Part shown: in pieces, positions 36,739 to 37,774 of the stretch
How positions within the stretch are numbered: the first letter of the stretch is position 1
How the letters are laid out: each line of letters opens with the position of its first letter
DNA from: Candidatus Rhodoluna planktonica
GTDB taxonomy: Bacteria; Actinomycetota; Actinomycetes; Actinomycetales; Microbacteriaceae
NCBI RefSeq assembly: GCF_001854225.1
Contig: NZ_CP015208.1
Coordinates: 558,001-622,000, forward strand
DNA length: 64,000 bases
Direction: 5' to 3'
Notes under the pieces: model-generated
The model's input: only the letters and a program-made list of their open reading frames with translations
What the model was told of the DNA's origin: nothing
The model's database searches: none
Translations under genes and position numbers: made by a program

Positions 36739-37627
36739 TCCGAACTTTCGCGCCGGTTTTGTGTCTTTTGTTGGGCGACCAAATGTCGGCAAATCTACGC
36801 TGACCAATGCTCTTGTCGGTCAAAAAGTCGTAATCACCTCGGCAAAACCGCAGACCACTAGAAAAGCTATCCGGGCAATCATCCACCGACCTCAGGGTCA
36901 ACTCATCATTGTTGACACTCCGGGCATGCACCGTCCTCGAACCCTGCTGGGAGAGCGGCTTAACGATTTGGTGGAAAGTACTCTCGCCGATGTTGACGTT
37001 ATTGCTTTCTGCGTACCGGCCAATGAAAAGATCGGTCCGGGGGATCGGTTTATCAGCGAGCAGTTGGATCGTTTCCGTCGGGCTAAAAAAGTTGCTGTGG
37101 TTACCAAAATTGAATTAGCCGATCCGGCTGAGGTGCGAAACCAACTTCTCGAGGTTTCGAAACTTCGCGAGTGGGATGAAATCATCCCGGTATCAGCTTT
37201 GGGCGAGCAACAGCTAGATGTTCTGATCGAAGAGCTCATCAAGCTCATGCCGCTCAGCGAAATGCTCTATCCAGAAGATGCCCTAACTGACGAATCGGAT
37301 GAAGACCGTGTCTGTGAGCTAATTCGTGAAGCTGCACTCGAGGGTGTCCGAGATGAGTTGCCGCATTCACTCGCGGTCACTTTGGATGAAATGAAGTTTC
37401 GGGATGATAAAAAACTGATGCAGATTCACGCCAATTTATGGGTTGAACGCGACAGTCAAAAGGGAATCCTAATTGGGCACAAGGGGTCTCGCCTGCGCGA
37501 AGTTGGCACCAAGGCGAGGCTCGAAATTGAGAAATTACTCGGAGTCAAAGTCTTTCTTGATTTACGAATCAAAGTTGCTGCCGATTGGCAACGTGACCCG
37601 AAACAACTGGGCAAACTTGGCTTTTAG
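36731..37627 (+). CDS. era: GTPase Era
   Basis: A 298-aa GTPase for 16S rRNA processing and 30S assembly. G1 is GRPNVGKST, G2 lies in KPQTTRKAI, G3 is DTPGMHRP and G5 is SALG. The C-terminal KH domain has LIGHKGSRLREVGTKAR. The G4 motif, normally NKxD or TKxD, reads TKIE (residues 125-128), so the guanine-contacting Asp is replaced by Glu. The start overlaps the corC-like gene by 8 nt. The leuA leader promoter starts inside the last codons. Confidence 0.95.
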   Translation: MTDPNFRAGFVSFVGRPNVGKSTLTNALVGQKVVITSAKPQTTRKAIRAIIHRPQGQLIIVDTPGMHRPRTLLGERLNDLVESTLADVDVIAFCVPANEKIGPGDRFISEQLDRFRRAKKVAVVTKIELADPAEVRNQLLEVSKLREWDEIIPVSALGEQQLDVLIEELIKLMPLSEMLYPEDALTDESDEDRVCELIREAALEGVRDELPHSLAVTLDEMKFRDDKKLMQIHANLWVERDSQKGILIGHKGSRLREVGTKARLEIEKLLGVKVFLDLRIKVAADWQRDPKQLGKLGF

Positions 37628-37646
37628 GGTCCAGACCGACTACGCT
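37617..37646 (+). promoter_or_regulatory. Promoter of the leuA leader (TTGGCT, 18 bp, TACGCT)
   Basis: The -35-like TTGGCT (37617-37622) overlaps the end of era and is 18 bp from TACGCT (37641-37646). Transcription would start about 6-7 nt later, exactly at the GTG of the leader peptide. The hexamers are seen directly; promoter activity is inferred. Confidence 0.6.
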
Positions 37647-37652
37647 AAAAAT

Positions 37653-37694
37653 GTGTTCTTTGGCCTACTGCTTAGTGGCCGCAACGAGGTCTAA
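37653..37694 (+). CDS. Leucine-rich leader peptide for leuA attenuation
   Basis: A 13-codon ORF encoding MFFGLLLSGRNEV with three consecutive Leu codons (CTA CTG CTT), ending in TAA. Its GTG lies exactly 6 nt after a -10-like TACGCT, so the transcript probably starts on this codon (leaderless). The end of the ORF lies inside the left arm of a 10-bp inverted repeat. When charged Leu-tRNA is scarce, a ribosome stalled on the Leu run would leave that arm in a different state than one reaching the stop. This is the classical attenuation layout in front of leuA. Too short to detect by gene finders. Confidence 0.75.
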   Translation: MFFGLLLSGRNEV

Positions 37695-37741
37695 ATCGAC
37701 CTTTCTCGTTGCGGGTATTTCTGCTTGGTCGCCACCTTTTT
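37675..37741 (+). promoter_or_regulatory. leuA attenuator hairpin region
   Basis: CCGCAACGAG (37679-37688) pairs with CTCGTTGCGG (37705-37714), and inside it GTC (37689-37691) can pair with GAC (37698-37700). An outer GTGGC (37675-37679) can pair with GCCAC (37731-37735), which is followed by CTTTTTCT, a possible U-tract. A terminator/antiterminator switch is inferred; the exact competing structure is not resolved by eye. Confidence 0.55.
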
Positions 37742-37774
37742 CTAGTCATGGCCTGCGGGCAATAGGAGCACACA

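Follow-up and report, generated by a model that had tools for sequence, protein, structure and literature searches.

A predicted leaderless LEU element upstream of leuA whose leader strand may mask the Shine-Dalgarno region

Background

The LEU element is an RNA element named by Seliverstov 2005 and found upstream of leuA in most Actinobacteria (PMC1262725). It combines a leader and a pseudoknot with a stem that forms between the Leu codons and the Shine-Dalgarno (SD) box of leuA. The original study, which included Leifsonia xyli among its genomes, favored a binding protein as the regulator, and we found no treatment of leaderless starts in it. The portions of the later literature available to us contain no mechanism for the element.

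Individual leaders of the same kind are known. In S. lividans, the leuA leader LeuL1 (peptide MRFGLLLLSCRGEGL) is leaderless and has no typical terminator, according to the accessible part of the report (PMC8079986), in which no mechanism beyond attenuation is given. The leuA leader of C. glutamicum is likewise described in partly available sources as having four Leu codons in a row, and that of C. diphtheriae as similar to it. The ilvBNC leader of C. glutamicum can be compared by its description in the available text (PMC11857589): as in the locus studied here, a leader peptide with branched-chain codons lies near the 5' end; unlike it, the system acts through a terminator hairpin, controls transcription and precedes another gene.

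Here we describe the leuA leader of Candidatus Rhodoluna planktonica, located within a window of 64,000 nucleotides. It is a LEU element, and its predicted leaderless arrangement has already been reported for LeuL1, as far as the available part of PMC8079986 goes. Like the elements described in 2005, it has leuA as target, a run of Leu codons, a pseudoknot and a base stem with the SD region. Its base stem differs, since it is formed mainly by the start of the leader (GTGTTCTT) with a shorter extension into the Leu codons. With LeuL1 it shares the Leu run and, as predicted, the leaderless start, whereas LeuL1 has four Leu codons in a row and a longer loop (PMC8079986, part seen). Finally, PMC1262725 covers only leuA and one transposase, while elements in front of leuC and leuB are reported here. 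Our analysis proposes a mechanism, open to testing, for an element whose regulation the 2005 study left unsettled, shows copies in front of leucine genes besides leuA, and supplies a model for finding more of them.

Results and discussion

Features of the leader

The source genome is composed of one contig of 1.42 Mb; we take Leifsonia xyli to belong to the same family. All features described below lie on the forward strand. The gene for 2-isopropylmalate synthase, leuA (37775..39511, ATG at 37775), is directly preceded by the leader element and is flanked upstream by era (ORF end 37627) and downstream by recO. A putative upstream promoter hexamer, TTGGCT, starts at 37617 and is separated by an 18-nt spacer from the -10 box TACGCT (37641..37646), which lies 6 nt ahead of the GTG at 37653, a spacing kept in relatives. 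This GTG opens a predicted leaderless ORF of 13 codons, MFFGLLLSGRNEV (37653..37694), with three Leu codons in a row (CTA CTG CTT, 37665-37673) and the stop codon TAA at 37692-37694. A simple consensus scan of the leader region called no promoter, a result that we did not count against one; support for the promoter comes from its -10 spacing, which is conserved among relatives.

Three potential pairings involve the leader. Stem S1 is a 10-bp inverted repeat with arms CCGCAACGAG (37679..37688) and CTCGTTGCGG (37705..37714). Stem S2, the putative pseudoknot, joins CGACC in the loop of S1 (37697..37701; the commonest form in relatives is GGCC) to GGTCG downstream (37727..37731; mostly GGCT or GGCC in relatives). 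The base stem connects GTGTTCTT (37653..37660), leader start codon included, to AGGAGCAC in the SD region of leuA (37764..37771), and extends between 37663-37666, 37670-37671 and 37755-37760. In addition, an outer pair, GTGGC (37675-37679, overlapping the left arm of S1 by one base) and GCCAC (37731-37735), is seen in the sequence followed by CTTTTT; the proposed terminator tail GCCACCTTTTT (37731..37741) is not conserved in relatives. The fold of the leader lies 3.4 sd below those of shuffled versions, one of 200 of which did equally well. Rfam covariance models, including those of riboswitches, T-boxes and leader families, gave no match at the gathering threshold, and at E-values up to 10 returned one weak microRNA match, on the opposite strand and outside the leader.

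The initial annotation of this region had proposed a leaderless, Leu-rich leader peptide and a transcription attenuator in front of leuA. The hexamers, the GTG ORF, the 10-bp repeat and the outer pair that it listed are all present where it had placed them. Its statement that the ORF ends in the left arm needs correction: both the final sense codon and the TAA are found just beyond the 10-bp arm, inside an additional GGTC/GACC pairing.

Conservation of the leader among relatives

We collected 197 leuA loci, a few of which derive from the same genome under two names. Within the genus, leuA was found in 55 of 60 genomes, and 51 loci were read; within the family it was found in 144 of 150 genomes, part of which were read; from named genomes we used the best 80 of 593 matches. 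Metagenome-bin contigs labelled Actinomycetota, Microbacteriaceae, Auritidibacter, Micrococcales or Rhodoluna encode LeuA proteins that are 80-86% identical. The short ORF, the Leu run, the -10 spacing and the hairpin recur in 195 of the 197 loci. At the other two, L154 and L155, both from the same genus, the element is missing altogether and leuA begins a few bases after the upstream gene.

The 195 leaders start with GTG (127) or ATG (68). A TAnnnT box precedes the start codon by 6 nt in 175 of them and by 7 nt in 19 (194 of 195, window included), a count to be read with the caveat that the start was picked with a preference for such a box; at the other ATG or GTG codons in the same stretches this spacing occurs in 8 of 2,461 cases. 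Given such uniform spacing, the most economical interpretation is a leaderless start, and transcription of the window's leader probably begins at the GTG itself, as the initial annotation had suggested, so far as sequence comparison can indicate. Its Leu-rich peptide is likewise borne out, as all kept leaders encode three to six Leu, in runs of three or four codons in 189 leaders and of two in the remaining six. The stop codon, expected within the hairpin, lies between the arms of S1 in 182 of 183 unique elements when the stem is found independently of the ORF; at the exception (L049), the search picked a different stem. Overall, the comparison of the gap before leuA shows conservation of the Leu run and of S1, but not of the outer stem and U-run.

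Structural conservation was counted on a MAFFT alignment of 144 dereplicated sequences. In S1, 99.1% of the pair cells are formed and three of the ten pairs show changes on both sides; the window has an A-U pair at a position where 135 of the 144 sequences carry G-C. In S2, 82.5% of the cells are paired in the alignment register, which is that of the other rows and from which the window is one base out. When loop and downstream strands were permuted between elements, the matched S2 strands of the whole set paired better (-9.86 vs -9.01, sd 0.14; 0 of 10,000 permutations), with a weak signal in the genus alone (-7.99 vs -7.50, sd 0.22). The gain recurred in 66 leuA elements of a class-wide sample (-17.87 vs -15.94, sd 0.32; 0 of 5,000) and in 8 leuB elements (reached by 17 of 5,000), and was not significant in 47 leuC elements (reached by 1,051 of 5,000). 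We interpret S2 as the LEU-element pseudoknot. S1 and S2 probably govern the timing and prevent competition by the downstream strand.

Pairing of the leader with the Shine-Dalgarno region of leuA

Pairing was evaluated between the leader, from its start through the Leu run, and the 22 nt immediately ahead of leuA. Much of the pairing between the two is generic, because the SD is purine-rich and CTY Leu codons are pyrimidine-rich, and only the excess over permutation counts as evidence. Such an excess was detectable in the 183 unique elements (mean -13.26 vs -11.72 permuted, sd 0.17) and also when the genus set (n = 45; -11.90 vs -10.35, sd 0.31) and the rest (n = 138; -13.71 vs -12.52, sd 0.19) were analyzed separately, with 0 of 10,000 permutations in each case, although this test is inflated by relatedness. 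Among 91 disjoint pairs of nearest relatives, 55 favor the pairing of a leader with its own SD region, 25 go against it and 11 are ties (P-value = 1e-4, Wilcoxon test). The same contrasts for four control segments showed no such gain, and two were significantly opposite.

In the genus set, 44 of 45 elements have the SD core inside their best duplex, as do 121 of 138 of the rest. The leader strand used in this duplex is not always the same: 22 of 45 genus elements and 23 of 138 others engage the leader start codon, while 22 of 45 and 120 of 138, respectively, engage at least 4 nt of the Leu codons. The window is of the start-codon type, its stem being formed mainly by GTGTTCTT with AGGAGCAC and not by the Leu codons. 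Its duplex with the SD region reaches -17.3 kcal/mol, a strength matched by 131 of 2,000 shuffled leaders, and the base stem is also present in the minimum free energy fold.

An exchange of leaders between leuA and leuC within the same genome fell short of significance, with 22 of 39 genomes in favor, 16 against and one tie (P-value = 0.057); the matched leuC pairing was -13.89 vs -12.83 (sd 0.39), not below every permutation. This set derives from 44 listed genomes, five of which (G101, G599, G633, G061 and G193) were dropped because no gene start or leader was found, and at least one of its leuC starts (G161) is apparently misplaced.

We also modeled how a ribosome footprint on the leader would affect the SD, in a folding model that leaves out the pseudoknot. 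Mean SD openness was 0.21 in the free RNA, 0.52 with a ribosome stalled at the first Leu codon and 0.25 with one at the stop codon (0.07, 0.33 and 0.06 in the window), and was higher for the stalled than for the terminating ribosome in 160 of the 183 elements. The modeled start codon of leuA became no more open on stalling (0.59 free, 0.51 stalled, 0.58 at stop), and in the window it closes at footprints of at least 30 nt. Since covering one strand tends to free its partner, these values indicate consistency with the proposed pairing rather than proof.

Proposed mechanism and alternatives

We consider it probable, though well short of certain, that the leader in the window is a LEU element that works by ribosome-mediated translational attenuation. 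From its parts, which are conserved and covary, we infer the following order of events and response to leucine. Transcription would begin at the leader GTG, and ribosomes would load directly on the leader ORF. With ample Leu-tRNA, the ribosome would proceed to the stop codon, located between the S1 arms, and leave the first 20-25 nt free; the 5' end thus released would pair with the SD region of leuA and shut the gene and, in the window, the start codon of the leader as well. With scarce Leu-tRNA, the ribosome would stall on the Leu codons and cover the anti-SD strand, so that the SD of leuA would be free. Ribosome position as the signal, already suggested in the initial annotation, is thus supported as likely. 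Sensor and lock residing in the same bases could explain the puzzling effects of codon changes in leuA leaders. Two published observations fit this reading less well, as far as the available texts go: leuA and leuL transcripts rise early in starved C. glutamicum, which points to control at the RNA level too (PMC6892785), and the behavior of mutations in the leuA leader of S. coelicolor departed from the predictions of classical attenuation (Craster 1999, quoted in PMC1262725).

The strong conservation of S1 and S2, together with the mutation data quoted in PMC1262725, would also fit the proposal of Seliverstov 2005 that a regulatory protein (with ML1624 orthologues as candidates) binds the pseudoknot, the leader peptide being incidental. 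A site for a protein would by itself need neither the Leu codons and -10 spacing kept in 194-195 of 195 leaders, nor a stop codon placed so regularly between the arms of S1, and would not lead one to expect the switch to Leu, Val and Ile codons in leuB leaders. We regard this explanation as unlikely.

Classical transcription attenuation, in which ribosome position would choose between an antiterminator and a GTGGC/GCCAC terminator with its U-run, seems to us unlikely too. It was suggested by the window itself, where the stem base is followed by CTTTTT, and partial resemblances can be found elsewhere: 10 of 45 genus elements combine a GTGG ahead of S1 with a CCAC behind it, a T-rich stretch directly follows S1 in 12 of 183 (including AGCTTTTTG in the genus loci L005, L006 and L013), and some terminator-like hairpin is present in 8 of 183. 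The near-leaderless leader of C. glutamicum ilvBNC is moreover a transcription attenuator (PMC11857589, part seen). However, no terminator form is common to the genus or the family. Outer stems of at least 5 pairs with a T-rich tail occur in 14 of 183 unique elements, 7 of them among the 45 of the same genus, and the stems differ; the form seen in the window, on which the annotation had based its attenuator, recurs in no other of the 183, and its 5-bp stem encloses a large structure in which a long stretch is unpaired. The leuL1 leader of S. lividans also has no typical terminator, according to the available part of PMC8079986. An intrinsic terminator was therefore rejected as a conserved feature, no conserved hairpin with U-run being found among the 183 unique elements; one confined to the window or shared within a small clade is conceivable, with no wider support.

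Translation-coupled Rho-dependent termination between the leader stop and leuA, with SD masking as a by-product, would agree with the lack of a conserved intrinsic terminator and has been proposed for cys leaders (PMC1262725), but it leaves the joint variation of leader and SD unexplained and is the least likely of these alternatives.

Distribution of LEU elements and the genes behind them

To follow the element outside the leuA loci, we used covariance models, R1 built from the family and R2 broader. Both detect one element in the window's genome (R1 E-value 5e-12), and reading the leuC and leuB regions of this genome by eye revealed no LEU element. R1 has matches in 43 of 296 genomes of the phylum, and R2 in 190 of the 197 class genomes sampled and in 147 of 149 family genomes, with one to three per genome. 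The leader of several matches of the family model (for example L208-L215 and L217) encodes exactly the LeuL1 peptide MRFGLLLLSCRGEGL.

We examined 134 loci, corresponding to 123 distinct places after repeats were removed by hand from the place names, and assigned the genes behind them with reference LeuC and LeuB proteins verified against NCBIfam. These genes are leuA in 74 loci (66 distinct), leuC in 51 (48 distinct), leuB in 8, and unassigned in one, which has a leuB-like leader. The tallies are not frequencies, because the regions were picked as listed matches away from leuA. In this sample, all leuC copies lie inside the window's family and all leuB copies outside it. No LEU element before leuC or leuB is mentioned in PMC1262725, and we found none in the parts of the other literature available to us.

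We tentatively suggest, as a possibility worth pursuing, that the Actinomycetes have a class-wide leucine regulon, with leaderless LEU leaders at leuA, leuC and leuB whose start and sensing codons would serve as the anti-SD strand. A single stem may hold sensor and lock and, in the window and about half of the genus set, the start codon of the leader as well; at leuB the codons may have been retuned to Leu, Val and Ile.

Among the leuC elements, those with Leu-run leaders include L205, L232-L235 and L284-L319, a copy that the window's genome does not have. The leuB elements come from other families (L244, L247, L250, L327, L328, L331, L333 and L335), and the seven of their eight leaders that were read contain Leu, Val and Ile codons side by side, as in MRKQLVVIACRGGAS and MARQLVILSSRGEFR. 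Between element and leuB, L244, L247, L327, L328, L331 and L333 carry a short ORF whose end resembles ARQALQESMDRRDQG or AQQALQEAMDRRDNGGE; the same type occurs in L329, where leuB was not reached, and perhaps in L335. This ORF may encode a small conserved protein belonging to the operon. Finally, in L274, counted above among the leuA loci, a LEU element precedes a gene whose product is only 25% identical to LeuA and is perhaps another member of the HMGL-like family.
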